Source of the DNA: Methylococcaceae bacterium
GTDB lineage: Bacteria; Pseudomonadota; Gammaproteobacteria; Methylococcales; Methylomonadaceae
Direction: 5' to 3'
Length of the DNA: 13,525 nt
Assembly (NCBI GenBank): GCA_947484105.1
Contig: CANKON010000013.1
Span: forward strand, 1 to 13,525
A program made the translations under genes and the position numbers. The notes under the pieces were generated by a model, which saw nothing but the letters and a program-made list of their open reading frames with translations, was not told the DNA's origin and did no database searches. Shown in pieces: positions 1 through 13,525 of this stretch; position 1 is the first letter of the stretch, and each line of letters starts with the position of its first letter.

Positions 1-788
1 CCGACGTTACGTTTTACGCCTGATTCGTCACGTATAAAACGTTTCACAATGCGGTCTTCAAGTGAATGAAACGAAATGACAACTAAACGCCCGTTTGAAT
101 TTAATAAGTTTTTGGCTTGTTTTAAAACAGATTCTAATTCACCTAATTCGTTATTTACCGCAATCCGAATGGCTTGAAAACTGCGAGTCGCGGGGTGTTT
201 ATGTTTTTCACGAAACGGAATGGCATCTTCAATTAACTTTGCTAATTGGCGTGTCGTTTCAATCGGTTGCGTTAATCGGGTTGTGACGATTGCATTGGCA
301 ATTCTGCGAGCAAAACGCTCTTCACCATAATCGAATAAAACTTGCACCAACGTTTTTTCATCAACATTTGCGAGCCATTGTGCGGCGGATAAGCCTTGCG
401 TTGTGTCCATTCGCATATCGAGTGTGCCGTCATTCATAAAACTAAAACCGCGTGTTTCGTCGTCTAATTGCGGTGAAGAAACACCTAAATCTAGCAAAAT
501 TCCATCTATTTTTTCATTTAAGTTTAAGTCTATTACGAATTTTTCCATTTCAGAAAAAGGCGCGTGAACTAATCGAAATCGTGAATCGTGGGATAATTGT
601 TGAGCACGTTCACAGTTAATGGCTGTTTCGTCACGGTCAAAAGCGATTAGCCGCCCATTTTCACCTAGTGCTTCTAAAATCCGTTGGCTATGTCCACCAC
701 GTCCAAATGTTCCATCTATATAAATGCCATCTTCCTTGATTGATAAATGGTGCAATGCTTCTTCGAGCATCACGGATAAATGGGTCAT
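1..788 (-). CDS. rsmH: 16S rRNA (cytosine(1402)-N(4))-methyltransferase RsmH, 3' part cut by window edge
   Basis: RsmH is an S-adenosylmethionine-dependent enzyme that methylates N4 of C1402 in the 16S rRNA P site. The ORF opens with [12 protein letters not shown] and carries the SAM-binding [10 protein letters not shown] motif at residues 25-34. Further family blocks are LIAFDRD, the [13 protein letters not shown] stretch, RGFSF and LDMRMD, and later [14 protein letters not shown] and [15 protein letters not shown]. About 262 codons are present. The family is about 310 residues long, so roughly 50 C-terminal residues lie beyond position 1. The start at 788 fits the MxH-S-VML family N-terminus and has GGAA about 10 bases upstream. 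rsmH usually follows mraZ in the mra/fts cell-wall cluster, but here a terminator, a promoter and rnpB lie directly upstream and no mraZ is seen. Confidence 0.96.
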
Positions 789-818
789 TTTGCAACATTT
801 CCGTTGTTAAAAAGCTAT

Positions 819-837
819 AAAAAAAGCCCTATCGGGC
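819..837 (-). terminator. Short intrinsic terminator-like hairpin between rnpB and rsmH
   Basis: Read on the minus strand this is GCCC-GATA-GGGC followed by seven T. The U-tract is present only in that direction. The stem is only 4 bp, though all G-C. It could end the primary rnpB transcript about 75-95 bases past the mature 3' end. It also lies in the leader of rsmH, downstream of the promoter at 851-879. Confidence 0.55.
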
Positions 838-850
838 GTTGGATTTGTTC

Positions 851-879
851 AATATAGATTTCAAATAAGGCTTAGTCAA
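851..879 (-). promoter_or_regulatory. Sigma-70-like promoter for rsmH
   Basis: The minus strand has TTGACT (874-879), a 17-base spacer, and TATATT (851-856), a close match to the -35/-10 consensus with ideal spacing. Transcription would start near 843-845, giving rsmH a leader of about 55 bases. The T-tailed hairpin at 819-837 sits within that leader. This is a pattern match only. Confidence 0.5.
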
Positions 880-911
880 GTTTGAAATTTAATCAGTAAT
901 TTTTAAAATTA

Positions 912-1272
912 AGTGAAAGAGTTAGCCTATAAGCTGGATTTTGTCGAGAACAGTCATTCATCTACGCGACAAATCACTTTGCCGCTTTAGCAATCTACCC
1001 GAAAGCTGCCAGGGCGGACAAATGCTTTCCTATTTGATCTTGCTCCAAGTGGGGTTTTCACTGCCACACCTGTTACCAGTTGCGCGGTGCGCTCTTACCG
1101 CACCATTTCAACCTTACTGATTTGCCGAAGCAAATTTAGCGGTATATTTTCTGCTGCACTTTCCGTAGGCTCACGCCTCCCAGCCATTAACTGGCACTCT
1201 GCCCAGTGGAGTCCAGACTTTCCTCCCCTCTATCATTACAATAAAGCGGCGACTGCCCAGCCAACTCTTTCG
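912..1272 (-). ncRNA. rnpB: RNase P RNA, bacterial class A
   Basis: This is the catalytic RNA of RNase P, which removes 5' leaders from pre-tRNAs. The minus strand shows the conserved elements in order. CAGTCGCCGC comes near the 5' end, then GAGGAAAGTC (P4 5' half), then the GTGCGGTAAGAGCGCACCGC hairpin. GGTAACAG, GGAGCAAG with AAATAGG, and AGATGAATGACTG follow, with CGACA and CTTATAGGCTAACTC at the 3' end. The P1 ends pair: AAAGAGUUGGCU at 1270-1259 matches the 3' AGGCUAACUCUUU at 916-928, with two wobbles. The ends are therefore estimated to within a few bases. One oddity is that the loop of P15 (1007-1023) contains no GGU. The plus-strand ORF inside this region is a chance reading frame. 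Confidence 0.96.
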
Positions 1273-1278
1273 CGATTA

Positions 1279-1287
1279 GTTTAGCAC
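1279..1287 (-). promoter_or_regulatory. Extended -10 promoter of rnpB
   Basis: The minus strand reads TGC-TAAACT, an extended -10 element. A start about 7 bases downstream falls at 1271-1273, exactly where the P1 helix of RNase P RNA predicts the 5' end. No good -35 is seen at 17 bases. A TTGAAC at 1308-1313 is too far upstream (about 23 bases). Confidence 0.5.
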
Positions 1288-1417
1288 AGTCCATTTAATT
1301 TCCTGCCGTTCAATTATTGTTATGTGTATGAACACCCTAAAAAATAAAAGCTAATCTTTGCAACGCCATAATTTAAAATACTCAAAAAAATCATCGAAAT
1401 ATAGCTCAAAAAACTAA
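1288..1417. promoter_or_regulatory. Divergent control region between rnpB and the kinase operon
   Basis: This AT-rich spacer must hold the promoter of the plus-strand operon. CATAAT and TAAAAT around 1367-1380 could serve as -10 elements, but neither has a convincing -35. No strong operator palindrome is seen. The TAA at 1415-1417 is in frame with, and directly before, the kinase ATG, so the kinase cannot start further upstream. The Shine-Dalgarno there is poor. Confidence 0.3.
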
Positions 1418-4400
1418 ATGCAAAAAAATCTAAAACTCAAGCAATTTTCTTTGTGGTTTTCATTAGCAGTTATGTTCGCACTAGGAACAAATACAGGCTT
1501 TTTGATTATGATTCAACGCGCTTATAACGGTGTTGTATCCGTACAAAAACACCGACAAGATGCAATGTCATTAGCGAATGAATTGCGGCAAGAAACAGAA
1601 CAATTGACACTGTTTGTGCGTGCTTATACAAGTACCGCGCAAACGCATTATTTGACCTATTACTACGATATTCTAGCGATTCGCCAAGGCGAAAAACCGT
1701 TGCCTGAAAATTACGTTACAGGAGCGTATTGGGACACTGCCGTTGCTGGCGAAATCACACATACTTTTCAAAAAAATGGCGTGGCATATCCACTTTCTGA
1801 GCGCATGGAATCATTGGGATTTAGTGACAAAGAATTACTCGCATTTGATAAAGTTTCAGAAGCAACAGAGGCAATGAAACAAATTGAACAAATTGCATTT
1901 GCCGCCACACAGGGACTTTATGATCCTAAAAAACAAGATTTTGTTTCGGATGGCAAACCACAATTAAAATTCGCGAGTGAATTAGTTCACAGTCAAAAAT
2001 ATAACACCCTCAAATCAAATTTAGCAAAATCCGTCATCAACTTAGTACAAATGGTTGATTTACGAACTAATACTGAAGTTGTTAAAGCGACAAATGAATT
2101 AGAACGCTGGATTTTACTCAGTTCGTTAAATATGGTTTTGGGGATTTTTATATTGATAATCGCGTCACGAGTGATTAGTCGAAGCGTTATAAAACCGATT
2201 AAATTATTATCAAAAGCCGCCGCAGATTTGGCTCAAGGCGATTATTCCGCCCGCACTTTTAGTTCAGAAGGAAAAGAAGGCGGCGTTGAAGAATTGGTGA
2301 CATTGGGTGTTACGTTTAATCGTATGGCAGAATCGATTGAAAATGACATCGGACTACAATTTAAAACACTCGAAAAATTAAAAATTGCAAATCAAAAAGC
2401 CGAAGAAGCCACGCGAGCAAAATCGATGTTTCTTGCCAATATGAGTCATGAAATTCGTACACCAATGAATGCGATTATTGGGATGGCGTATCTTGCATTA
2501 CAAACCGATTTAACCACACGCCAAAAAGACTACATTAACGAAGTACATAATGCTGCCAAATCGTTACTGGGCATCATTAACGATATTCTTGATTTTTCTA
2601 AAGTTGAAGCAGGAAAAATGAAATTAGAAGAAACGCGATTTGTTCTTGAAAATGTTTTAGGTGACTCATTATCACTGTTACGCCAGCGTGCTTCTGAGAA
2701 AGAGATTGAATTACTTTTAGAAATGACAGATCCATTATTGCTTGGCGGTAGTGGCACACTAATGGGTGATGCGTTACGACTGACACAGATTTTGACAAAT
2801 TTATTATCAAACGCTGTCAAATTTACCCATCACGGTCATGTGAAATTAGTGGCTGAAGTGCAAGAACGTAGTGAAGAGGATTTATTGCTGCGTTTTAGTG
2901 TTGTGGACATGGGAATTGGAATGTCAAAGGCGCAAGTTGATGGCTTATTTCAAGAATTCACGCAAGCAGACGGTTCAACCACGCGCCGATATGGTGGCAC
3001 AGGATTGGGACTGACGATTTCTAAAAAATTTGTTGAATTGATGGGAGGGCGGATTTGGGTCGAAAGTGAAGAAGGAAAAGGTTCACATTTTATTTTTGAG
3101 ATACGTTTTCCCATCGCAAAACCGTTACCGTCGATTGAGGCAAATTTACCTAAAGTTGAGATTTTACGAATTTTAGTCGTTGACGATAGACGCGAAGTCC
3201 AAATTGTCACAACAGAATTGCTTGCACTTTTAGGTGTTAAAGAAAGTGTTGATTGTGCATCAAGTGGCAAAGAGGCTTTAAAAATGCTCGAATATGCCGC
3301 AATAACCAATCAGCCGTATGATTTGCTATTACTCGATTGGGTAATGCCTGAAATGGATGGTGAAGCGGTTTTAAAAGCATTGCAAAAAAGCCAATTACCT
3401 TATTTACCTCAAGTGGCATTATTCACGGCTTACGACACCAATATGATGTATGAAGCGGTAAAGGATTTCGGCATCAAGCACTTTTTATCCAAACCCGTTT
3501 TGCCTGAAGCATTACGAAAATTATTAAATGAAGTGGCAAGCGGAAACATTATTGAAGAAATCCAAAATCATTATGAAAACGATTTGCAAACTAATTTTGA
3601 TGGAATGCGCGTTCTTTTAGCAGAAGATAATTTAATCAATCAGAAATTAGCTATTGAATTGATGCAAAGTCGCGGCGTTGATGTCACGGTTGTGAATAAT
3701 GGTCAAGAAGTTTTAGACAAACTCGCGGAGGTTGAACCTGATTATTACCATTTGGTGTTAATGGATTTGCAAATGCCCATTATGGACGGTTATGAAGCCA
3801 GCGCGAAATTACGCGCTGACCCACGTTATGCCGCGTTGCCTTTGGTCGCTATGACAGCCCATGCCATGATTGAAGAACGTGAACGTTGTATCAAATTAGG
3901 CATGAATGGACATATTAGCAAACCGATTGAACCCGATAAATTTTATATCAAATTGGGACACTACTATAGATCGGGTATTCAGTTTCACCGCAATGCCAGA
4001 AAAACAATTTATGCACCTTATGCGTTGCCTGAGATTGTGGGTTTAGACATTTCGGAAGGTTTGCGGCGTGCAGGAAAAAATCAAAAATTGTATCGGCAAA
4101 TGCTTTCTGCGTTTGTGACCGATTATTCAGACTACATCAATAGGATTACAAATTATATTAAACAGGGTGAATGGGAAAATGCTGAAAAAATGGCACATAC
4201 AACAAAGGGATTAGCGGGAACACTGGGTATTAAAAACGTTCCCGACTTAATGAATAAACTAGAAGTTGCGTGCAAAAATAAACAAATGAAAACGGCACTT
4301 GAAACGTTAGTTGAAATTATTCCCGTTTTCACACCGATAATGATGGGATTGGAACATTTTTTCGAAGAGCATTCTGACACACAAAAAATCGCTGTCACAA

Positions 4401-4609
4401 TAATAGAATCAGGTAAAATTCCCGAATGTTTTCCACAAATTTTAACATTACTTAATGAAGGTGACAGTGATGTAATACATTTGTGGGAGCACCATAAAAT
4501 GGAATTTACGCAAATTCTTTCATCTCACGTTTTGCATCTTATCGATGTTGCAGTGCAAAATTTTGAATTTGATGACGCATATAAACTGCTTGCCGATTTA
4601 CAAAAATAA
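1418..4609 (+). CDS. Hybrid sensor histidine kinase (sensor-HAMP-HisKA-HATPase-REC-REC-Hpt)
   Basis: This is an inner-membrane phosphorelay kinase of 1063 residues. TM1 is at about 11-32. A mainly helical periplasmic sensor of about 195 residues follows, then TM2 at about 231-252 and HAMP at about 253-310. HisKA carries the phospho-acceptor H344 (NMSHEIRTPMNAIIG). The ATPase domain has an N box (NLLSNAVKFT, 461-470), a G1 box (DMGIGMS) and a G2 box (GGTGLGL, 526-532). REC1 at about 583-705 has D589, D590, phospho-site D640, T670 and K692. REC2 at about 730-848 has E736, D737, D783 and K835. Hpt at about 875-980 has H927 in AHTTKGLAGTLG. About 80 further helical residues end the protein. All key residues are intact, so a full His-Asp-His-Asp relay is possible. 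The likely final acceptor is the receiver protein encoded 15 bases downstream. The architecture is BarA-like, but the signal is unknown. Confidence 0.95.
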   Translation: MQKNLKLKQFSLWFSLAVMFALGTNTGFLIMIQRAYNGVVSVQKHRQDAMSLANELRQETEQLTLFVRAYTSTAQTHYLTYYYDILAIRQGEKPLPENYVTGAYWDTAVAGEITHTFQKNGVAYPLSERMESLGFSDKELLAFDKVSEATEAMKQIEQIAFAATQGLYDPKKQDFVSDGKPQLKFASELVHSQKYNTLKSNLAKSVINLVQMVDLRTNTEVVKATNELERWILLSSLNMVLGIFILIIASRVISRSVIKPIKLLSKAAADLAQGDYSARTFSSEGKEGGVEELVTLGVTFNRMAESIENDIGLQFKTLEKLKIANQKAEEATRAKSMFLANMSHEIRTPMNAIIGMAYLALQTDLTTRQKDYINEVHNAAKSLLGIINDILDFSKVEAGKMKLEETRFVLENVLGDSLSLLRQRASEKEIELLLEMTDPLLLGGSGTLMGDALRLTQILTNLLSNAVKFTHHGHVKLVAEVQERSEEDLLLRFSVVDMGIGMSKAQVDGLFQEFTQADGSTTRRYGGTGLGLTISKKFVELMGGRIWVESEEGKGSHFIFEIRFPIAKPLPSIEANLPKVEILRILVVDDRREVQIVTTELLALLGVKESVDCASSGKEALKMLEYAAITNQPYDLLLLDWVMPEMDGEAVLKALQKSQLPYLPQVALFTAYDTNMMYEAVKDFGIKHFLSKPVLPEALRKLLNEVASGNIIEEIQNHYENDLQTNFDGMRVLLAEDNLINQKLAIELMQSRGVDVTVVNNGQEVLDKLAEVEPDYYHLVLMDLQMPIMDGYEASAKLRADPRYAALPLVAMTAHAMIEERERCIKLGMNGHISKPIEPDKFYIKLGHYYRSGIQFHRNARKTIYAPYALPEIVGLDISEGLRRAGKNQKLYRQMLSAFVTDYSDYINRITNYIKQGEWENAEKMAHTTKGLAGTLGIKNVPDLMNKLEVACKNKQMKTALETLVEIIPVFTPIMMGLEHFFEEHSDTQKIAVTIIESGKIPECFPQILTLLNEGDSDVIHLWEHHKMEFTQILSSHVLHLIDVAVQNFEFDDAYKLLADLQK

Positions 4610-4624
4610 CAAAAGAGAAATGCA

Positions 4625-5722
4625 ATGTTTGAAAATCAACGTCCTACTATTTTAGTTATTGATGACACACCGACGAATTTAAATTTACTGTCAAATTTAC
4701 TCAGAAATGACTACCGTGTGAAAGTGGCAAATAATGGGGCGAAAGCACTTGAATTAGCTTTTTCTGTCACACCTGATTTGATATTACTTGATGTAATGAT
4801 GCCAGATATGGATGGTTATGAAGTCTGTCGTCGTTTAAAAAAAGACGAAAAAACCGCGAAAACCCCCGTTATTTTTCTTACTGCTAAAACGGAAATTGAA
4901 GATGAAGAATTAGGATTTTCAGTCGGTGCGGTCGATTTTATTCATAAACCAATCAGTCCTCCGATTGTTTTGGCGCGAGTGAAAGCCCAATTACAACTCA
5001 AAACGTGGCAAGATTTTTTGCAAAATCAGAATATGTGGTTACAAAAACAAGTTGAGCAACGTTTAACTGAAATCAACCATTTGCAATATGCCACCATTTG
5101 CGTAATGACCTCGATGGCAGAATTCCGTGATGAAACAACGGGAAATCATATTCGACGTACACAAAATTACGTTTTAATGTTGGCAAAAGAAATGTCTAAA
5201 TTGCCGCATTATAAAGCGAAATTAACACCTAATTACATTGAGCAAGTGAGTAAATCTGCGCCTTTACACGATATTGGAAAAATTGCGATTCCCGATGACA
5301 TTTTATTAAAACCAGGCAGACATACGCCTGAAGAGTTTGTCACTATGAAAACACACGCCCAACGTGGTTACGATATGCTAAAAAAAGCAGGTGATTACAT
5401 GGGCGAAAAAGGGGAATTCTTAGAAATTGCAATGGAAATTGCAGGTAGTCATCACGAAAAATGGGATGGTTCGGGTTATCCAATGGGGTTAAAAAATACA
5501 CAAATTCCATTTTCAGCACGCTTGATGGCATTGGCAGATGTCTTTGATGCGTTACTTTCTCGCCGTCCTTATAAACCCGCAATGAGCATTGAACAAACCA
5601 TCAAAATTATTTTGGAGGGAAAAGGGACACATTTTGATCCAGAAATTGTTGACGCATTTTTAAAGATAAAAGATGAAATGTTAAAAGTGGCGAAAAATTT
5701 AGCCGATATTCATGACAACTAA
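4625..5722 (+). CDS. Response regulator with HD-GYP domain (c-di-GMP phosphodiesterase, RpfG-like)
   Basis: This cytoplasmic output protein has 365 residues. The N-terminal receiver (about 8-122) has the acidic pair D13/D14, phospho-acceptor D56 (LLDVMMPDMDG), T86 and K108. A short, probably coiled-coil linker follows (about 125-150). The HD-GYP domain (about 155-355) carries HDIGK (H215, D216), H244, paired H276/H277, the GYP signature at 284-286, and D305 in ADVFDAL with RPYK after it. These are the metal-binding and signature residues of active HD-GYP phosphodiesterases, which hydrolyse cyclic di-GMP. The gene follows the hybrid kinase by 15 bases, with AAGAGAA as a modest ribosome site, and its end overlaps the next gene by 11 bases. 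Phosphorylation by the upstream kinase and resulting control of c-di-GMP is inferred from this pairing and from RpfC/RpfG. Confidence 0.95.
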   Translation: MFENQRPTILVIDDTPTNLNLLSNLLRNDYRVKVANNGAKALELAFSVTPDLILLDVMMPDMDGYEVCRRLKKDEKTAKTPVIFLTAKTEIEDEELGFSVGAVDFIHKPISPPIVLARVKAQLQLKTWQDFLQNQNMWLQKQVEQRLTEINHLQYATICVMTSMAEFRDETTGNHIRRTQNYVLMLAKEMSKLPHYKAKLTPNYIEQVSKSAPLHDIGKIAIPDDILLKPGRHTPEEFVTMKTHAQRGYDMLKKAGDYMGEKGEFLEIAMEIAGSHHEKWDGSGYPMGLKNTQIPFSARLMALADVFDALLSRRPYKPAMSIEQTIKIILEGKGTHFDPEIVDAFLKIKDEMLKVAKNLADIHDN

Positions 5723-7025
5723 AAACTGCCTCACACTAGCGTGTGCTGCCGTTTCAATTTTAAATTCCATTTCGGCAAATGCAGCAACCGATTTTTCATT
5801 GTTTGGCGCAGATGTTTCTTTGTCGGGTTTTGCCACAGCAGGTTTTGCAATTTCTGATCAGTCTTATCGATACCAGCGTTTTATAAATAATGATGGCACT
5901 TTTAAGCGTGATTCGCTTGTCGGTGCACAAGTTGATATTAAGCTAAACGACGAATTTAGTATCACTGCACAAGCGAAAGTTGCCCCTTCGTTAGAAAGTG
6001 ACAAAGAAATTAACCCGATATTAACGTGGGCATTTTTGTCGTGGCGACCCACAAATGATTTGTTGTTTCGTGGCGGACGAATTCGTATTCCGATGTATCT
6101 GAATAGTCAAAATATGGATATTGGCGCAACGTTTGATTTTGCACGATTACCCTCAGAAGTGTATTTAACGTCGCCAACTAATGATATAGATGGCTTGTCG
6201 GGCAGTAAAACATGGAATTTTGACTTAGGTGAATTAACAGCTGAGGGATATGTCGGAACGACTGACACATTTAGTCGATTGGGTTCTTACAATTATCCAC
6301 CATTATCTGGAGGTACACTTTTTGTGCCGCTTAAAATTAACTTGTACGGTATGGCATTAACGTTTCAGCATGAAGAAAGTCTTTTTCGTGTTGGTGTTCA
6401 TGATACTTATAGCCAACGTACAGATGGGCGTTACATGATTGTGGACTATCCTTATGTGCCTATTTCATCAAAAGCAGGTTATTACCAAGTGAGTAATGAT
6501 GCGTTAGCAGGTCCTGGTATTCCTCTCAAATCTCAATTACACAGCTTTTTATACACGGTTGGTGCAGATGTATCACTAGGCAATGGATTTCGCTTAATGG
6601 GTGAATATGTTCGCCGTGAAGTGCGTGATATTTTGATCGGTCCAGACTCGGCTGGTGAATATCTTGCGCTACTTAAATCATTTGGTGATTGGACACCTTA
6701 CGTTAGCATGGCACATTTACAATCAACCAATCGGGTACTTGATTTTTATAATAAATTAAATAACAACCGTGTGCCAGCGACAGTTCCTTATTCATCAGCC
6801 ATTAACGCTTCTCAACGGGCAGCGGCAAATAGAACATTAGCGTATGACCAAACAACGTGGGCGTTAGGAACATCTTATCAACTCAATCCAACCAGTAAAT
6901 TGAAAGCAGAATGGGCAATTACTCAAACGGGGAATGTGTCGAGTTTCATTGAGATACCGATGAACGGATCTTCTAGTAACCAACTCATCAATGTCTTTTC
7001 TTTTTCTTACAACGTTACATTTTAG
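5712..7025 (+). CDS. Outer-membrane porin-like beta-barrel protein, copy A
   Basis: This secreted protein has 437 residues. A signal peptide covers residues 1-24 with a likely cut at SANA|ATDF. The mature part alternates polar and hydrophobic residues as in beta strands, is rich in Gly, Tyr and aromatic residues, and ends SFSYNVTF. The terminal Phe is the usual C-terminal signature recognised by the BAM outer-membrane assembly complex. It is a paralogue of the next gene, with shared blocks such as FSLFGADVSLSGFATAGFAI, WRPTNDLLFRGGR and DWTPYVSMAHLQS. The start at 5712 lies inside the preceding HD-GYP gene (11-base overlap, frame shifted), which suggests translational coupling. No strong Shine-Dalgarno is visible. 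I cannot tell the substrate. It would probably let small solutes through the outer membrane, and its placement suggests that the solute relates to the kinase signal or the PstS-like protein. Confidence 0.85.
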   Translation: MTTKNCLTLACAAVSILNSISANAATDFSLFGADVSLSGFATAGFAISDQSYRYQRFINNDGTFKRDSLVGAQVDIKLNDEFSITAQAKVAPSLESDKEINPILTWAFLSWRPTNDLLFRGGRIRIPMYLNSQNMDIGATFDFARLPSEVYLTSPTNDIDGLSGSKTWNFDLGELTAEGYVGTTDTFSRLGSYNYPPLSGGTLFVPLKINLYGMALTFQHEESLFRVGVHDTYSQRTDGRYMIVDYPYVPISSKAGYYQVSNDALAGPGIPLKSQLHSFLYTVGADVSLGNGFRLMGEYVRREVRDILIGPDSAGEYLALLKSFGDWTPYVSMAHLQSTNRVLDFYNKLNNNRVPATVPYSSAINASQRAAANRTLAYDQTTWALGTSYQLNPTSKLKAEWAITQTGNVSSFIEIPMNGSSSNQLINVFSFSYNVTF

Positions 7026-7053
7026 TTAATGAATACAAAGTATGTTTGAATGC

Positions 7054-7058
7054 AGAGG
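7054..7058 (+). promoter_or_regulatory. Ribosome binding site of porin copy B
   Basis: AGAGG lies 12 bases before the ATG at 7071. It falls downstream of the other possible ATG at 7050, so it favours the 7071 start, although the spacing is longer than ideal. Confidence 0.4.
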
Positions 7059-7070
7059 TACGCTAACAAA

Positions 7071-8375
7071 ATGAGAAAACGAATTTTAATGACCCTAGCG
7101 ACGATTTCAGCACTAAATGCTATTTCGGCAAATGCAGCCACTGATTTTTCATTGTTTGGTGCAGATGTTTCTTTGTCGGGTTTTGCCACAGCAGGTTTTG
7201 CAATTTCAGATCAAAGCTATAAATATCAACGCTTCTTAGATGATAACGGTACGTTCAAACGTGATTCCGTTTTGGGTGGGCAAATTGATATTAAATTAAA
7301 CGATGAATTTAGTGTTATCGCACAAGCAAAATTAGCACCTTCCATAAGCAGTGAAAGAGACGTAGATGCGACGCTTACTTGGGCGTTTTTGGCATGGCGA
7401 CCGACCAATGATTTATTATTTCGTGGTGGGCGAGTGCGAGTTCCTTTTTATCTGCATAGCGAAACAACTGACATCGGCGAAACATTCGAGTTTGCTCGAT
7501 TACCCGTCGAGGTTTATCCCGTCTCAGCGGTGGCAAATATAAATGGTCTGTCTGGTAGTAAAACTTGGGATTTAAACAACGGTGAATTAACACTTTCTGG
7601 ATATGTTGGTGAATTAACAAATCATGTCCGCCAATCGCCTTATAACCAGCCACCGTTATCAGCAGAGGCTAGCTATATGCAAATCAATACAGAAGGTTAC
7701 GGATTAGTCTTAACGTTTGAGCATGACAGTGATATTTTTCGTATTGGCGCACACGATTCTTTCAGTCGGCGTAATGATGGGCAAGGTATGGAAGTTACAT
7801 TTCCTTTTGTTTCCATTATGCCAAACGTCGGTTATTACCAAGTATCCAATGATATGCCAGGACCTGGCGTGCCTAAAGTGAATGAAGTGCGAACGATTTC
7901 TTATGTTGTGGGCGCAGATATTGAGTTGGGAGAAGGGTTTCGCTTAATGGGCGAATATGTCCGCCGTGATGTGAGAAATATCGTAACAGGTCCTGATTCA
8001 CAAGGCGGCTATTTGGCGTTGCTTAAATCGTTTGATGATTGGACACCTTACGTCAGCATGGCGCATCTGCAATCAATGGAAAAATCTCTCAATCTTTATC
8101 GTGATTTAAGTGGCAACACTGTTCCAGATATTATTCCCGATGCGGCTGTTCTTAATGCTTCTCAACGTGCGACGGCGGCGAGCATTGATGTTTATGACCA
8201 AACAACATGGGCAATTGGTACTTCATATCGAATAAATCCAACCAGTAAATTAAAAGCAGAGTGGGCAATAACAAAAACAGGTGACGTATCAAGTTTTATT
8301 GACACGCCTATCGGTGGGGCATCGGGTGATAAACTCATCAATGTTTTTTCTTTTTCTTACAACATTGTTTTTTGA
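7071..8375 (+). CDS. Outer-membrane porin-like beta-barrel protein, copy B
   Basis: This is a tandem paralogue of the preceding gene, about 434 residues from this start. MRKRILMTLATISALNAIS followed by ANA|ATDF makes a clean signal peptide, with basic residues then a hydrophobic stretch then ANA. The ATG at 7050 would add seven residues (MQRYANK), is still possible, and has no better ribosome site. The mature barrel matches copy A along its whole length, with the same block order, and ends SFSYNIVF with the terminal Phe. Differences cluster in short segments that look like surface loops, for example after the SGSKTW block. Loop divergence could mean the two porins pass different solutes or face different phage pressure. 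That is inference. The stop codon overlaps the ribosome site of the next gene. Confidence 0.85.
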   Translation: MRKRILMTLATISALNAISANAATDFSLFGADVSLSGFATAGFAISDQSYKYQRFLDDNGTFKRDSVLGGQIDIKLNDEFSVIAQAKLAPSISSERDVDATLTWAFLAWRPTNDLLFRGGRVRVPFYLHSETTDIGETFEFARLPVEVYPVSAVANINGLSGSKTWDLNNGELTLSGYVGELTNHVRQSPYNQPPLSAEASYMQINTEGYGLVLTFEHDSDIFRIGAHDSFSRRNDGQGMEVTFPFVSIMPNVGYYQVSNDMPGPGVPKVNEVRTISYVVGADIELGEGFRLMGEYVRRDVRNIVTGPDSQGGYLALLKSFDDWTPYVSMAHLQSMEKSLNLYRDLSGNTVPDIIPDAAVLNASQRATAASIDVYDQTTWAIGTSYRINPTSKLKAEWAITKTGDVSSFIDTPIGGASGDKLINVFSFSYNIVF

Positions 8376-8378
8376 AGG
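8374..8378 (+). promoter_or_regulatory. Ribosome binding site of the PstS-like gene
   Basis: GAAGG sits 8 bases before the ATG at 8387 and shares bases with the TGA stop of porin copy B (8373-8375). It shows that translation starts at 8387 and not at the in-frame TTG at 8372. The overlap suggests coupled translation. Confidence 0.65.
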
Positions 8379-8386
8379 TTGAAAAT

Positions 8387-8800
8387 ATGAAAAAGAAATT
8401 TAAGATATTCGTTTTGATTTTTTATGTTGGATTCAAGTCCGTTCAAGCGGGCGAGGTCGTTGTTATTGCAAATAATAATGTTCCAAAAATGGATGCTACG
8501 ACAATCCAAAAAATTTATACAGGCAAAATTATTTCTATTTCAGACATCAACCTTAAACCTGTAAATGCCAAACTAGGCACAAAAGAGCGTAATCGTTTTT
8601 TAGACGTGTTTATGAATCAAGATGAAGAAAAATATACAGGTTATTGGACGGTTAGACGTTATATTGGAAAAGGCACGCCACCCAATGAATTGAACAGCGC
8701 GGCAGAAATTATTGATTATGTGAAATCGACTGCTGGGGGAATGGGTTATATTGATGAGGCAGACTTAAAAGAAGGCGTAAATGTCATTGGTCGAAAGTAA
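8387..8800 (+). CDS. Small secreted PstS-like (phosphate/oxyanion-binding-like) protein
   Basis: The protein has 137 residues. MKKKFKIFVLIFYVGFKSVQA is a signal peptide with a cut after A21 (VQA|GE). The mature part of about 116 residues starts with a beta strand (EVVVIANNN). It contains DATTIQKIYTGK, which is typical of the PstS-type periplasmic binding fold, and ends with STAGGMGYIDEADL, the counterpart of the TPGAIGY-type motif of PstS proteins. It is far shorter than full PstS (about 320-350 residues), so it holds only part of the two-lobe fold. No ABC permease or ATPase gene is nearby, so it is unlikely to feed a transporter encoded here. With a sensor kinase at the head of the same operon, it may act as a periplasmic ligand-binding partner of the sensor. 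That is inference. The start is chosen by the GAAGG site and the signal peptide. Confidence 0.8.
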   Translation: MKKKFKIFVLIFYVGFKSVQAGEVVVIANNNVPKMDATTIQKIYTGKIISISDINLKPVNAKLGTKERNRFLDVFMNQDEEKYTGYWTVRRYIGKGTPPNELNSAAEIIDYVKSTAGGMGYIDEADLKEGVNVIGRK

Positions 8801-8802
8801 TT

Positions 8803-9657
8803 TCATTCTTTTGTGAGTGCCAACGCCGCTTGATAAATGGGTTTCTTTTTACCGCCTGTAATTTCAACGGTTAAATCAACGGCTTTTTTTACGCTACATT
8901 CGGCAAGCAACAATTTCAAAATACGTTCTTGTTCAAGCGAAATCACGTTTTCAGACACATCGATTTTTTCTGCGCCTTCAACAATTACCACAAATTCACC
9001 GCGTCGCATATTCACATCGGTTTCAACGAACTCGAGCATTTTAGCGAGTGGTAATTTCACAATCGTTTCATGTAATTTTGTTAATTCTCGCGCAATGACC
9101 ATCGAACGTTCCGCAGGTAAAACCGCCGCCATATCTTGTAGACAATCCAAAATGCGATGACACGATTCATAAAAAACCCACGTTGTTGAAAGGGTAGCGC
9201 GTTCTGCAAAAAAAGTTTTACGCGCGGATGACGTTCGCGGCACGAATCCTTCAAACGTAAAAGGTGTAATCGCTACACCCGCCGCTGATAAACCAGCAAT
9301 CAATGCACACGCGCCAACAATCGGCACAACGGTTAAGTTCGCGTCGTGAACCGCTTTGACAACAGGCATTCCAGGGTCACTAATTAACGGCGTTCCCGCA
9401 TCAGAAACTAACGCAATCGACAATCCCGACCGTAATTTTTCGACAATTTCTAATGCCGCTTTATCTTCATTATGTTGATGTAACGCAATTACTTTGTTGT
9501 TGATACCATAATGTTGCAACAACATTTTGACGTGGCGCGTATCTTCGGCGGCGATTAAATCGACTGTTTTCAACGTTTCAACCGCGCGAAAAGTAATGTC
9601 TGCTAAATTACCAATCGGCGTAGCGACAATGTATAACTTGCCTGATTCTTGAGTCAT
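8803..9657 (-). CDS. rsmI: 16S rRNA (cytidine(1402)-2'-O)-methyltransferase RsmI
   Basis: RsmI uses SAM to methylate the 2'-hydroxyl of C1402 in 16S rRNA, the same nucleotide whose base RsmH modifies. With this start the protein has 284 residues, close to the E. coli enzyme (286). Family motifs are YIVATPIGNLADIT (9-22), AAEDTR (36-41), LVSDAGTPLISDPG (83-96), and FEGFVP followed by a Ser/Arg-rich stretch. FYESCHR and RRGEFVVIVEG come later. The longer ORF could begin at 9681 (MVNKQRMKM), but the AAAGGA at 9663-9668 lies 5 bases before the ATG at 9657 and selects that start. The gene begins 2 bases after the stop of the phosphatase gene, so it is the last gene of a udg-ubiG-mupP-rsmI run. Its stop faces the stop of the plus-strand operon 2 bases away. 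Confidence 0.96.
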   Translation of the reverse strand: MTQESGKLYIVATPIGNLADITFRAVETLKTVDLIAAEDTRHVKMLLQHYGINNKVIALHQHNEDKAALEIVEKLRSGLSIALVSDAGTPLISDPGMPVVKAVHDANLTVVPIVGACALIAGLSAAGVAITPFTFEGFVPRTSSARKTFFAERATLSTTWVFYESCHRILDCLQDMAAVLPAERSMVIARELTKLHETIVKLPLAKMLEFVETDVNMRRGEFVVIVEGAEKIDVSENVISLEQERILKLLLAECSVKKAVDLTVEITGGKKKPIYQAALALTKE

Positions 9658-9659
9658 TT

Positions 9660-10322
9660 TCATCCTTTGTTTATTAACCATTCAAGCAACTCTTTCGGCG
9701 AATGAATCAACATATTTGCGCCCCACAATTCAGGCATTTCACCCGTTTGCAAATAACCATACGTTGCCGCAAGTGTGACCATTCCTGCATTTTTACCTGC
9801 CAAAATATCGTGTGCTGCATCGCCGATATAAACGCACTCTTCAACTGAAACACCGATTTTTTCACACGCCGCAAAAAGTGGAGCAGGGTGAGGTTTTGAA
9901 TTTGGTGTGGTATCGCCACAAATTACACACGCGGCGCGAGTTTGTAAATTCAACGCTTCAACTAACGGAAATGTAAACCGTTCACGTTTATTTGTGACAA
10001 TTCCCCACGATAAATTTTGTGCTTCGATAAATTCTAAAACGTCTAACATTCCATCGAAAAATCGGCTAAATCGGGCAATGTTATTTTCATATTCAACGAG
10101 CATTGAATTCAAAATGGCAGCGCGTTTATCTTCATCAACATCGATTTCAAGACTCGCGTTAATCATCGCAATCGCACCAAATGAAACGTGTGGTTTGACG
10201 TGTTCATACAAAACGGCTGAAAAACCATGTTGCTCTAAACCAAAATTTAAACACGCAATCAAATCGGGCGCGGTATCAACCAGCGTTCCATCTAAATCAA
10301 ATAACACGCACGACAACTTCAT
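9660..10322 (-). CDS. mupP: HAD-family phosphatase, MupP/Gph-like (probable MurNAc-6-phosphate phosphatase)
   Basis: This HAD hydrolase has 220 residues. Motif I is FDLDGTLVD (nucleophile D9, acid D11), motif II is T110 in GIVTNK, motif III is K143 in NSKPHP, and motif IV is GDAAHD (D168, D172). A helical cap lies between motifs I and II. From memory, the segments around WGIVTNK, NSKP-P-PL and the WGA-HSP-EL tail resemble Pseudomonas MupP more than E. coli Gph. In Pseudomonas the gene also directly follows ubiG. MupP dephosphorylates N-acetylmuramic acid 6-phosphate in peptidoglycan recycling. Gph clears 2-phosphoglycolate. The reading frame extends to a TTG at 10328, but the ATG at 10322, 2 bases after the ubiG stop, is the more likely start. 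The HAD call is certain. The substrate is inferred. Confidence 0.85.
   Translation of the reverse strand: MKLSCVLFDLDGTLVDTAPDLIACLNFGLEQHGFSAVLYEHVKPHVSFGAIAMINASLEIDVDEDKRAAILNSMLVEYENNIARFSRFFDGMLDVLEFIEAQNLSWGIVTNKRERFTFPLVEALNLQTRAACVICGDTTPNSKPHPAPLFAACEKIGVSVEECVYIGDAAHDILAGKNAGMVTLAATYGYLQTGEMPELWGANMLIHSPKELLEWLINKG
9663..9668 (-). promoter_or_regulatory. Ribosome binding site of rsmI
   Basis: AAAGGA is 5 bases before the ATG at 9657. It lies at the end of the upstream phosphatase reading frame, just before its TGA (9662-9660). This decides the rsmI start and suggests translational coupling. Confidence 0.65.
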
Positions 10323-10324
10323 TT

Positions 10325-11029
10325 TCAAGCCTGTTTTTTAAATGCCGCAATGTAATTCACATCGACATCTTTACCGAGTGAAAAACGTTTGGTGAACGGG
10401 TTGTATTCAATGCCAATCATGCCTTGAAGTTCTAAACCTGCTGAACGCGCGGTTTTACTTAATTCATGTGGTTTGATAAACGTTTTAAATTCATGCGTGC
10501 CTTTAGGCAACATTTGTAAAACATATTCTGCGGCAACAATCGCCAGCAAAAACGCTTTTGGCTTACGATTCAACGTTGAAAAAAACACCATTCCATCAGG
10601 TTTTACGAGTTTTGCACACGCTGAAATAATCGAACCCGCGTCAGGAACGTGTTCAAGCATTTCCATACACGTTACAAAATCGAAACTTTCGGGTTGTTCT
10701 TCGGCGAGTTTTTCAACCGCGATTTTTTGATAATTCACGGTTGAAACGCCCATTTCTAAGGCATGTAATTCGGCGACATCGATTAAATCGCCGCTCAAAT
10801 CAATGCCTAAAGCCTCTGCGCCATGTTGCGCTAAGGCTTCGGTTAAAATTCCCCCGCCACAGCCTACATCAATGGCTCGTTTGCCAGAAATTTCGGTGAA
10901 TTGTTGAATAAATTGCAAACGCAACGGATTTATCGCGTGCAAGGTTTTGAATTCGCCTTCTTTATCCCACCAGCGTTCAGCCATCGAGCCAAATTTGTGA
11001 ATTTCGTGAGCGTGTACGTTATCAGTCAT
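10325..11029 (-). CDS. ubiG: Ubiquinone biosynthesis O-methyltransferase UbiG
   Basis: UbiG performs the two O-methylation steps in ubiquinone synthesis using SAM. The 234 residues match the family length (E. coli 240). Near the N-terminus is EIHKFGSMAERWWD, then FKTLHAINPLRL. The SAM motif DVGCGGGILTEALA starts at 54. ALGIDLSGDLI and CMEMLEHVPD (121-130) follow, then FFSTLNRKPKAF, and KGTHEFKTFIKP before YNPFTKRF near the C-terminus. It starts 40 bases after the udg stop and ends 2 bases before the phosphatase ATG, in the same direction, so these are probably co-transcribed. Its presence indicates a respiring, ubiquinone-using proteobacterium. Confidence 0.97.
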   Translation of the reverse strand: MTDNVHAHEIHKFGSMAERWWDKEGEFKTLHAINPLRLQFIQQFTEISGKRAIDVGCGGGILTEALAQHGAEALGIDLSGDLIDVAELHALEMGVSTVNYQKIAVEKLAEEQPESFDFVTCMEMLEHVPDAGSIISACAKLVKPDGMVFFSTLNRKPKAFLLAIVAAEYVLQMLPKGTHEFKTFIKPHELSKTARSAGLELQGMIGIEYNPFTKRFSLGKDVDVNYIAAFKKQA

Positions 11030-11069
11030 AGTTTTTATTTTCGTCTATTAAATTAAAAGTAGTTGCGGT

Positions 11070-11765
11070 TTAGTGTAGTTGTTTAAAGGTTTGCAGGGCA
11101 AATTGTAAATCGTGCCACGCTTTACGTTTTTCGGTTAGTGAACGCAATAAATAAGAAGGGTGATAAATAGCAATTAACGGAATATTTTCAACTTGATGCA
11201 CCGTACCGCGCAATTTGCCAATTTTCTCTGGGGTTTCAAGTAATGTTTGAGCCGCAATGCGTCCAACCGCAATAATTATTTTCGGTTGGATTAGTGCAAT
11301 TTGTCGCTGTAAATAATTTCGGCATTGTTTAATTTCATCAACGTGCGGGTCACGATTTTGCGGAGGGCGACATTTTAAAATGTTGGCGATAAAAATTTCA
11401 TTGCGTGTCAAATTCATGGCACGCAACATTTCAGTTAATAATTGTCCCGCGTCGCCGATAAACGGACGACCTTGTTCATCTTCTTGTTGTCCTGGTGCTT
11501 CACCAATAAATAACCAATCTGCATTTTCATTCCCTTCACCAAAAACGGTTTGCGTGCGAGTGGTACATAAAGTGCATAATTTACAACCAGAAACGTCCGC
11601 GCGACATTTTTCCCACGAATCTGGGATGATAACTTCAGTTAAAACAACGTGATGGGCGTCAAATTCAATTGGGGCGATAGTCGAATCAGTCATAAATTTT
11701 GACTGCCAAACTGTCACGCCCATTGCGTCTAAATACTGTAAACGGTTGATTTCAGAAAGTGCCAT
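11070..11765 (-). CDS. Family 4 uracil-DNA glycosylase with iron-sulfur cluster
   Basis: This enzyme removes uracil from DNA that arises from cytosine deamination, starting base-excision repair. It has 231 residues. Four cysteines (C61, C64, C132, C148) are placed as the 4Fe-4S ligands of family 4 enzymes, the first pair in CKLC and the third in KCRPPQNRDP. The active-site motifs are FIGEAPG (86-92) with GRPFIGDAGQLL after it, and HPSYLL (202-207). The first 60 residues form the N-terminal extension usual in proteobacterial members, with YLDAMGVTVW. The start at 11765 is the ATG at the head of that extension. A later Met (residue 25) would remove it. It heads the run udg-ubiG-mupP-rsmI, and a TATAAT about 50 bases upstream supports this. 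Confidence 0.93.
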   Translation of the reverse strand: MALSEINRLQYLDAMGVTVWQSKFMTDSTIAPIEFDAHHVVLTEVIIPDSWEKCRADVSGCKLCTLCTTRTQTVFGEGNENADWLFIGEAPGQQEDEQGRPFIGDAGQLLTEMLRAMNLTRNEIFIANILKCRPPQNRDPHVDEIKQCRNYLQRQIALIQPKIIIAVGRIAAQTLLETPEKIGKLRGTVHQVENIPLIAIYHPSYLLRSLTEKRKAWHDLQFALQTFKQLH

Positions 11766-11817
11766 GTGAGTAAATAAAGTGTGAATGCAAAAAGTAAAAA
11801 CCTGTCAGAATGCGGAC

Positions 11818-11825
11818 ATTATAAC
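11818..11825. promoter_or_regulatory. Overlapping divergent -10 elements (udg operon and PAS/MCP operon)
   Basis: The 97-base spacer 11766-11862 serves both directions. On the minus strand 11823-11818 reads TATAAT, a perfect -10, placing the udg start near 11811 with a leader of about 45 bases. On the plus strand 11820-11825 reads TATAAC, which would place the PAS start near 11832. Neither has a good -35 at 16-18 bases. The two -10 sites share four base pairs, so RNA polymerase could not occupy both at once. Confidence 0.4.
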
Positions 11826-11862
11826 GCTCAATAAACATCAAGATTGTAAAACGGGATAACCT

Positions 11863-12393
11863 ATGAAAAGAAAAGACATTATACCGACCGCTCATGAACG
11901 CTTTATGCGAGAGGACGATTTTATCGTGTCGAAAACAGATTTAACGGGACGCATTATTTACGGTAACGAAATCTTTATTGAATTTTCGGGATACGAAGAA
12001 TATGAATTGCTCGGTAGTCAACATAATATAGTGCGCCATCCCGATATGCCGCGCGTCGTATTTAAATTGCTTTGGGATTATTTAGCGGAGGACAAAGAAA
12101 TTTTTGCATTTGTAAAAAATATGTCTAAAGACGGTAGTTTTTATTGGGTTTTCACGCACGTCGCGCCAATTTTTGATAAAAATAACAAGAAGACGGGTTA
12201 TACATCTGTACGACGAATGCCAAATCCTAAAGCGGTTCCCATTGTTTCTGATGTGTACAAATCAATGTTAAACGCTGAAAAGCAAGCAGGCGCAAAAGAC
12301 GCAATGGCAGCTTCAGGGGCGATTTTAGGTAAATTATTAGAGGAAAAAGGCGTTAGTTATGAAGAACTCATTAATATTCTCCAGTCGCTTTAA
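11863..12393 (+). CDS. PAS-domain redox/energy sensor, Aer N-terminus-like (CetB-like)
   Basis: This soluble protein has 176 residues. A PAS domain covers about 15-120 and resembles the N-terminal sensor of E. coli Aer: SKTDLTGRIIYGNEIFIEFSGY, the HNIVRHPDMPR block (54-64), VKNMSKDGSFYWV (84-96), and GYTSVRR (112-118). In Aer the RHPD residues line the FAD pocket, and they are kept here as R58, H59, P60 and D61. The Aer tryptophan before VKN is not kept (Ile or Phe here). No membrane segment or signalling domain follows. The last 55 residues look helical and contain Ala-rich and Glu-rich stretches. GGGA 6 bases before the ATG acts as ribosome site. The overlapping downstream gene encodes a membrane MCP, so this protein probably senses redox or respiration and passes the signal to it, as CetB does to CetA in Campylobacter. 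Confidence 0.88.
   Translation: MKRKDIIPTAHERFMREDDFIVSKTDLTGRIIYGNEIFIEFSGYEEYELLGSQHNIVRHPDMPRVVFKLLWDYLAEDKEIFAFVKNMSKDGSFYWVFTHVAPIFDKNNKKTGYTSVRRMPNPKAVPIVSDVYKSMLNAEKQAGAKDAMAASGAILGKLLEEKGVSYEELINILQSL
12347..12350 (+). promoter_or_regulatory. Ribosome binding site of the MCP gene, inside the PAS gene
   Basis: AAGG (within AAAAAGG) lies 8 bases before the ATG at 12359. It supports an MCP start inside the PAS gene and a 35-base overlap in the +1 frame. Confidence 0.55.
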
Positions 12394-13525
12394 AATAAAC
12401 GAACAAATTGCTTTTTCCACAGTGGGATTAACGTGGGGCAGTTCATTAGCTTACAGTTGGTGGCATGACGGTGGTCAACCACTTGTCCCTATTTTGCTAA
12501 CCGTTGCGTCCATTATTTCAGTTTGGGCGTGGCACAAATCGCGGCAGCATAATAAAGAGTTACTGACAAAATTGACTGCGATGACGAATGAATGGCGAAA
12601 AGGTGAAGTAAGCGTTCGGATTACAAATATCGGTGGTAAAAAAACGGAATTGCAACAAGTCGCGTGGGCATTAAATGATTTAATGGATCAAGTTGAAACC
12701 GCGCAAGTGGATATGTATTACTCAATGGCGTATGTCACTTACGGTGACTTTTCGCGTAAAAGTTACCCCGCTGGTTTGCACGGTGGTTTTTCGCACGCAT
12801 TGAAGCGTTTAAATTCACTCACAAAAGTGTTGTCTTCGACAACAAACGGTATTAACGAATTGATGACAGCATTGAACGCAGGTGATTTTAGTAAAAAAAT
12901 CAATTTGAAGGTAGATGGCGAATACGCTAAAGCGATTAACAGTGCCACACAAGCAATGGAAGCCATGCGAATGATGATTGATAATATCGGTGAGGTGATG
13001 GGGAATGTCGCACAAGGCGATATTACGCACCGTATCACCGCGCAAGGGCAGGGCGATTTTGCGGTTTTAAAAAATAATGTCAATTTGTCACTCGATGCGT
13101 TGGAAGGTAGTTTTAATGATATTTCGCGGATTGTGAACGCATTGGCAGAAGGCGATTTAACTCAAAATAGTGAACAAACTTATCCAGGCACATTCGGCAA
13201 TGTTATTTTGGGTATGAATCACACGGTTGAAACATTGAAAGTCATGGTGGGTGAAATCAAAGATTCTAGCGAAGTGATTGAAACCGCCGCAAAGGAAATC
13301 GCTGCTGGAAATTATGACTTATCACGTCGCACGATTGATCAAGCTGCAAACTTGGAAAAAACGGCTGCGAATATGAATGAATTTACTCACACGATTAGAC
13401 AAAATAGCGACAATGCCAAACAAGCAAATGAATTAGCAGAAATTTCCTCGAATTTCGCTCGGAACGGCGTAGTTGCTGTGGGACAAGTTGTAAAAACGAT
13501 GGATGGTATTAACGAATCATCTCGC
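12359..13525 (+). CDS. Methyl-accepting chemotaxis protein with several HAMP-like units (CetA-like), 3' part cut by window edge
   Basis: The first 389 residues are visible and the frame is open to the window end. Two membrane segments lie at about 17-35 and 41-58, joined by only a few residues (HDGGQPL), so there is no periplasmic ligand domain. A long run of HAMP-like units follows, marked by repeats such as YGDFSRK (128-134), AGDFSKKINL (174-183), QGDITHRI (219-226) and EGDLTQN (264-270), each followed by a helix. The MCP signalling helix begins near 305, with LSRRTIDQAANLEKTAANMN (321-340), the region that includes methylation sites in Tsr, then QNSDNAKQANELA. The CheA/CheW contact tip and the rest lie beyond the window. 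The start at 12359 overlaps the PAS gene by 35 bases and has AAGG 8 bases upstream. A later GTG (12422) would cut into TM1. With no outside sensor of its own, it probably takes its input from the PAS protein. Confidence 0.92.
   Translation, partial: MKNSLIFSSRFKINEQIAFSTVGLTWGSSLAYSWWHDGGQPLVPILLTVASIISVWAWHKSRQHNKELLTKLTAMTNEWRKGEVSVRITNIGGKKTELQQVAWALNDLMDQVETAQVDMYYSMAYVTYGDFSRKSYPAGLHGGFSHALKRLNSLTKVLSSTTNGINELMTALNAGDFSKKINLKVDGEYAKAINSATQAMEAMRMMIDNIGEVMGNVAQGDITHRITAQGQGDFAVLKNNVNLSLDALEGSFNDISRIVNALAEGDLTQNSEQTYPGTFGNVILGMNHTVETLKVMVGEIKDSSEVIETAAKEIAAGNYDLSRRTIDQAANLEKTAANMNEFTHTIRQNSDNAKQANELAEISSNFARNGVVAVGQVVKTMDGINESSR

Follow-up and report, generated by a model that had tools for sequence, protein, structure and literature searches.

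What brings a sensor kinase, a cyclic di-GMP (c-di-GMP) regulator, two porins and a piece of a phosphate-binding protein together in one row of genes? The question is raised by a 13,525-nucleotide stretch of a Methylococcaceae bacterium (assembly GCA_947484105.1, contig CANKON010000013.1, positions 1 to 13,525; hereafter, the window), in which five open reading frames (ORFs) run head to tail on the plus strand: a hybrid histidine kinase, an HD-GYP regulator, porin 1, porin 2 and a secreted single-lobe PstS-like protein that we call half-PstS (Table 1). All five ORFs were confirmed. With ATG starts the genes are separated by 15, −11 (an overlap), 45 and 11 bases, and their start and stop codons were verified, which agrees with the layout given in a sequence-only reading of this DNA. 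The spacing, together with the conserved order described below, suggests that the five genes would share a transcript; a promoter and terminator scan returned sites no more numerous than in shuffled sequence. On the evidence presented here, we lean toward the view that their products make up a single sensing unit across the envelope, composed of porin, half-PstS and sensor domain with an exchangeable output, in which the half-PstS would serve as the adaptor from porin to sensor.

To follow the half-PstS beyond the window, we searched a sample of 398 Pseudomonadota genomes with a family profile, which matched 75; in 11 of the 75 all matches were weak (E worse than 1e-8), and the frames mostly had the full length of PstS. 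From these matches, which are those listed and not every match, we took the best-scoring places, minus the window's own two and three beside places already taken, which gave 100 stretches; a further 19 weaker places on the list, whose scores were like those of a half-PstS, were left out. Another 20 stretches came from relatives. As controls we used 79 genes lying more than 3.5 kb from a half-PstS within the same 120 stretches. ORF calling was crude in GC-rich loci: L091 and L159 lost their half-PstS ORF and L088 and L106 yielded two each, leaving 120 genes at 118 loci, and the long frames around the half-PstS of G354, in DNA of 65 to 70% GC, were not taken as fusions of half-PstS to other domains.

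Next to 83 of the 100 half-PstS genes, and to none of the 79 controls, lay a barrel-sized co-directional ORF (300 to 520 amino acids, ending in F, W or Y; Fisher P = 2e-34). A co-directional transducer (kinase, cyclase, EAL protein or chemoreceptor) was found within three genes of 78/100 half-PstS genes, compared to 19/79 controls (P = 4e-13), and both neighbors were present together in 66/100 and 0/79, respectively. Across all 120 half-PstS genes, a barrel-like gene was adjacent to 101 and a co-directional transducer lay within three genes of 90, comprising 27 cyclase-phosphodiesterases, 24 chemoreceptors, 23 kinases and 16 cyclases, with none beside the remaining 30. In a set of 80 named loci (the best 80 of 377, mostly Pseudoalteromonas), the adjacent barrel-sized gene was present in 77, a chemoreceptor lay within three genes in 44 (on the opposite strand in 41 of them), and 26 had no transducer within that distance. 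The porin and the half-PstS are thus the constant core of these neighborhoods, and a transducer is usual but not universal.

These counts refine what the sequence-only reading had proposed. Its suggested neighborhood search, for the half-PstS with porins and sensors, shows that the families do co-occur in other genomes, and its guess that porin, PstS-like and kinase neighborhoods are widespread but undefined is upheld by the genome and association counts and by the literature search reported below. Its picture of a self-contained five-gene system stands in part: it is the porin and half-PstS that go together most constantly, and the kinase and HD-GYP regulator are just one of several outputs, which across loci are a chemoreceptor, a diguanylate cyclase, a cyclase-phosphodiesterase or a kinase. 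We therefore rejected the kinase and HD-GYP regulator as an essential part of the module. Gene proximity alone can mislead (PMC11113362), so that chance or merely local clustering without a functional link has to be weighed; recurrence across classes, the controls and the tree sorting described below speak strongly against it, and we regard it as very improbable.

A more serious rival, and the main one, puts uptake first. The porin and half-PstS would act as a pair in the uptake or gating of some solute at the outer membrane, the neighboring transducer would sense the solute directly without ever being touched by the half-PstS, and the genes would travel together because importing a solute and responding to it are useful jointly. 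The constancy of the pair suits this explanation, as do the loci in both sets that have no transducer within three genes. It is weakened by the absence of any transporter gene from the window operon (by ORF list and by Pfam on the operon; transporters were not searched in all neighborhoods). PstCAB genes, the usual partners of a phosphate-binding PstS, were not recognized when the window ORFs were read, Pfam having covered the operon and two genes at the right end.

The structure predicted for the half-PstS also bears on these alternatives. As a single sequence it has no Pfam match; the family profile matches PstS chains, and the predicted model matches PstS lobe 2, with model residues 25 to 142 aligning to that lobe only (E. 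coli PstS residues 77 to 209 of 321; root mean square deviation of 1.7 Å over 103 residues against lobe 2 of 4lat). Judged by profile and model, lobe 1, which faces lobe 2 in PstS, is absent, and the protein is an estimated 115 residues or so after its signal peptide. A half-PstS of this kind would have no facing lobe with which to hold a solute, which again counts against the uptake-first explanation. The phosphate loop is replaced in the window by NAKLGTKER, which places A, T, K and E at the positions equivalent to R135, S139, G140 and T141, the phosphate-loop residues of PstS. All four were kept in none of 118 half-PstS sequences and in seven of nine PstS-like controls; of the two exceptions, one was a partial alignment that had been misplaced and the other a divergent protein.

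Since none of the 118 keeps all four residues, and since the fold is single-lobed, sequence and model together make phosphate an unlikely ligand, and we rejected it as a candidate. Of the earlier guess of phosphate or another oxyanion, the first part thus falls, while another oxyanion may yet be the ligand. The same two properties argue against ordinary phosphate sensing, in which a short PstS would bind phosphate and pass the signal to the kinase, in the manner of PstS and CtpL in Pseudomonas aeruginosa; genus members G008 and G010 also carry a separate full-length PBP_like_2 protein, and we give this explanation next to no weight.

What the half-PstS has in place of the loop and the facing lobe could be read differently. 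An invariant W and an invariant G occur in 118/118 half-PstS sequences and are absent from those PstS controls that could be aligned at these positions, which leaves room for a new site, and the missing part is the facing lobe. These observations would suit a split receptor, in which the sensor domain stands in for the lost lobe and ligand is trapped in a two-sided pocket between half-PstS and sensor. The loss of the anion-loop residues argues against it, as does the diversity of the partner sensors. We clustered the periplasmic domains of 71 partner transducers and the window kinase, leaving out 6 of 77 that lacked two clear transmembrane (TM) segments, and obtained eight groups. A common ancestor of these sensors was rejected: when the profiles of seven of these groups were compared, no convincing relation emerged (the best pair, S4 and S6, reached a probability of 49%). 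A common composite pocket is hard to reconcile with partners that have no convincing relation to one another, and we consider the split receptor improbable.

Returning to the adaptor between porin and sensor, we note in its favor that the output can change behind a given sensor. One sensor family of about 115 residues is borne by 12 cyclases, 6 kinases and a single cyclase-phosphodiesterase. By coordinates, 23 of the 25 strong matches to its profile adjoin a half-PstS; 17 of the 25 had built the profile, and of 14 matches outside it, 11 adjoin a half-PstS. We then compared these labels with trees of the half-PstS and the barrel, which were quick trees with Shimodaira-Hasegawa-like approximate likelihood ratio support only, built from few columns of short or divergent alignments. 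In a first half-PstS tree of all 72 rows, 12 combined sensor-output groups required 11 changes, which is the minimum. In a second tree of 70 rows (L108_5 and L049_6 omitted), partner sensor family required 6 changes for 7 classes, again the minimum, and output class required 8 changes for 4 classes, where the minimum is 3. Shuffled labels required 39.6 (sensor) and 38.8 (output) changes, so both labels are clustered. In a barrel tree of 70 rows, the 8 sensor classes again needed no more than the minimum of 7 changes, and the 4 output classes needed 8.

The mixed group sharing the 115-residue sensor fell on one side of a branch with a support of 97. Neither chemoreceptor group S2 nor group S4 fell on one side of a branch. 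Forcing the 17 kinase-partnered rows together was rejected (approximately unbiased test, p-AU 0.009), the kinase group having been picked after the first tree had been seen. Kinship of the genomes is disfavored as the cause of the sorting: of the 54 genomes represented, 14 carry more than one module (two or three), always with at least two sensor families, and the two kinase modules of G137 differ in sensor group and lie apart in the tree. Judged by these trees, half-PstS and porin follow the partner sensor family more strictly than the output, which fits joint inheritance of porin, half-PstS and sensor domain while the cytoplasmic output sometimes changes. What weighs against our reading is that the contrast between sensor and output depends on few output swaps, a lesser one of which, L134, may be a split gene. 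Tracking of the sensor family by the half-PstS and barrel clades through output changes would not be expected if uptake came first. Some sensors do resemble direct binders of small ligands (dCache_1, below the cut-off, in L044, and the MCP2201 ligand-binding domain); weighing both sides, we consider the uptake-first explanation rather unlikely.

The arrangement found in the window is also conserved as a whole. The order kinase, HD-GYP regulator, one porin, half-PstS recurs in two members of the same genus, G008 and G002 (L031 and L032; in G002 the start of the kinase is on another contig), and in four genomes belonging to one family of another class (G137, G145, G094 and G241; L097, L120, L138 and L145), so that the genes form a recurrent set, as the sequence-only reading had thought possible. 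Relative to the window, L097, L120 and L138 display identities of 36 to 55% in the sensor, 55 to 62% in the HD-GYP regulator, 35 to 38% in the porin and 39 to 48% in the half-PstS. With L031 included the sensor range is 36 to 72%, and with L031 and L032 that of the regulator is 55 to 76%. This four-gene order is old. Two porins occur only in the window operon, the other six operons having one each; porin 1 is 61% identical to porin 2 and 61% identical to the single porin of G008, to which porin 2 is nearer (64%).

Within the genus, the module is absent from most members, with half-PstS orthologs in 4/18 genomes, including a broken one in G010, and a strong sensor match in 4/18, where the G016 kinase is cut by a contig end. 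The G010 locus (L033:1-926) is a decayed copy in which the end of the HD-GYP gene, part of a porin and a half-PstS spread over two frames are left, although this could also reflect an assembly fault. The operon adjoins rsmI in both the window and G008 (L031:2721-3587), on opposite sides, which suggests relocation around the same locus. The window genome, whose assembly is incomplete (1.5 Mb, 72.5% complete), has a second and different pair of barrel-sized gene and half-PstS on contig C225 (L038:810-2248). In G009 (L039), another member of the genus, a pair similar to that on C225 precedes a different kinase and a REC-HD-GYP regulator, so that one type of output is reached from two distinct sensors. 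An AMO/pmoA-type gene was present in six of seven tested genomes, the exception being the window's own, and the host group is therefore probably methanotrophic.

How such a unit might work can be outlined from its parts. The porins would sit in the outer membrane and the half-PstS in the periplasm, into which the sensor of the kinase, predicted to be a four-helix bundle, would reach from the inner membrane. As the porin's constant partner, the half-PstS would report the state of the porin, or the incoming solute, to the sensor domain. The kinase combines HisKA, HATPase, REC and Hpt domains with their phospho-site motifs (SHEIRTP at 343 in HisKA, LDWVMP at 639 and MDLQMP at 782 in the REC domains, HTTKG at 927 in Hpt), as a hybrid phosphorelay kinase does. 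Its phosphorelay (HisKA-REC-REC-Hpt) would set the adjacent regulator, a putative c-di-GMP phosphodiesterase by its REC aspartate and catalytic motifs (LLDVMMP in REC; HDIGK and HHEKWDGSGYP in HD-GYP), and c-di-GMP would change. Elsewhere, pairs of this kind accompany chemoreceptors or diguanylate cyclases. The contact between half-PstS, porin and sensor, the porin side as the input and the direction of the c-di-GMP change are the steps that we infer.

Both putative barrels have a signal-peptide-like N-terminal stretch and a terminal F. Porin 1 has no Pfam match even at an E value of 10, and the sole Pfam signal of porin 2 is a subthreshold OMP_b-brl; among 19 aligned relatives, Porin_4 was matched in 5 and OMP_b-brl in 7, and the family profile had no match in the PDB.

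Several known systems resemble parts of this one. Activation of kinases, chemoreceptors and c-di-GMP enzymes by two-lobed binding proteins is well established (PMC9602780, PMC6321045, PMC11113362), known solute-binding proteins being 20 to 65 kDa (PMC9602780). In TorT-TorS, LuxP-LuxQ and XylFII-LytS (PMC6321045), and in NspS-MbaA (PMC11575326), a periplasmic partner of binding-protein fold acts on a transmembrane kinase or c-di-GMP enzyme. Binding proteins are known to activate TorS, LytS and receptors whose sensors are four-helix bundles (PMC6321045), and the structural matches listed for the window sensor model include TorS, LytS and QseE as well as the MCP2201 domain, while a fold outside that list may fit too; we counted this correspondence for the adaptor. 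As in those systems, the half-PstS gene lies beside a transmembrane receptor gene in the window and in most other loci. Here, in contrast, the protein has one lobe, a porin-like companion is constant, and a single sensor family can occur with outputs of several types. Of 11 characterized binding-protein/kinase pairs, 10 were encoded together, and neighbors tested in the same paper did not interact (PMC11113362).

PstS-CtpL, the phosphate chemotaxis pair of P. aeruginosa, likewise places a PstS-fold protein on a transmembrane receptor, but its PstS is the ligand protein of PstABC uptake and binds the CtpL sensor (PMC6321045), whereas the window encodes half of such a protein. PstS itself (PF12849, PBP_like_2) has the lobe 2 fold in common with the half-PstS, which lacks lobe 1 and the kept loop residues. 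The window kinase shares HisKA-HATPase-REC-Hpt with BarA-type hybrid kinases (best NCBIfam match PRK11107, 466 bits against a cut-off of 890) and differs in having two REC domains, another sensor and a paired REC-HD-GYP regulator. QseG-QseE, an outer-membrane lipoprotein and its kinase, is not known to include a porin or a PstS-fold part. No description of a porin/half-PstS/sensor module, or of a one-lobed porin-linked member, was found in open-licence PMC full text, where treatments by locus tag only are unsearchable, and the available part of a paper on c-di-GMP proteins of V. fischeri makes no mention of a porin (PMC11575326). The module thus looks undescribed, while the activation of receptors by binding proteins is already known.

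The pair is also found on plasmids. Among eight plasmid records, porin and half-PstS lie near a chemoreceptor in two; one has a porin-sized hypothetical gene, a half-PstS and an EAL protein; one has a half-PstS with a chemoreceptor two genes off and no porin alongside; three have a porin or porin-sized neighbor and no transducer nearby; and one further record is without annotation. On an Alteromonas mediterranea plasmid (L052:9001-17112), the half-PstS and porin-sized hypothetical gene adjoin a type IV CRISPR (csf) locus. On a large plasmid in a P. aeruginosa record (L053:5114-8339), chemoreceptor, porin and half-PstS stand in a row among genes of fatty-acid and aldehyde metabolism, a context that hints, speculatively, at organic acids as the solute. 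In G067 (L088:3464-6583 and flanks), two half-PstS and two barrel-sized genes alternate and are followed by one cyclase-phosphodiesterase.

The flanks of the window operon hold the RNase P RNA on one side, with a gene we take to be rsmH beyond it, and on the other a gene we take to be rsmI, both names being assigned from the translations. Farther along, a PAS protein (11863-12393, plus strand) overlaps the start of a HAMP-containing protein (12359-13525, plus strand), and by Pfam the two resemble an aerotaxis receptor split in two. For two genes the longest frame starts earlier than the ATG used here: porin 2 from 7050 (441 amino acids) and half-PstS from TTG 8372 (142 amino acids).

Table 1. 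Features of the operon and its flanks in the window (aa, amino acids).
Feature	Coordinates	Strand	Basis or remark
Hybrid histidine kinase, 1063 aa	1418..4609	+	Pfam, TM estimate, motif positions
Kinase domain order (residues): TM ~14-32, periplasmic sensor ~33-231, TM ~232-250, HAMP, HisKA, HATPase, REC, REC, Hpt			
Periplasmic sensor domain of kinase, group S3, predicted four-helix bundle	1514..2110	+	Structure model; sequence comparison
Response regulator REC + HD_5 (HD-GYP), 365 aa, putative c-di-GMP phosphodiesterase	4625..5722	+	Pfam, motifs
Porin 1, porin-like outer-membrane barrel, 437 aa, C-terminal F	5712..7025	+	Signal-like start, size, relatives
Porin 2, porin-like outer-membrane barrel, 434 aa from ATG 7071, tandem relative of porin 1	7071..8375	+	
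Half-PstS, secreted, one PstS-like lobe, 137 aa including the signal peptide	8387..8800	+	Profile, model
RNase P RNA	914-1268	−	RF00010, 307.5 bits; between rsmH and operon
rsmI (presumed)	8803-9681	−	Name assigned from translation

The label now attached to half-PstS proteins, phosphate ABC transporter substrate-binding protein, is probably mistaken for most members of the family. More broadly, the loci could represent an undescribed class of trans-envelope receptor across Pseudomonadota, with a porin front end and a one-lobed PstS derivative that acts as a mechanical adaptor without a small-molecule site of its own, recruiting unrelated inner-membrane sensors with chemotaxis, c-di-GMP or phosphorelay outputs; we put this forward tentatively, as a proposal that in its full extent is doubtful. 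Should the reading as a sensing unit hold, many chemoreceptors, cyclases and kinases whose input is unknown would share one input apparatus that includes a porin. This would offer a direct handle on orphan receptors, and could account for those purified sensor domains that bind no ligand.

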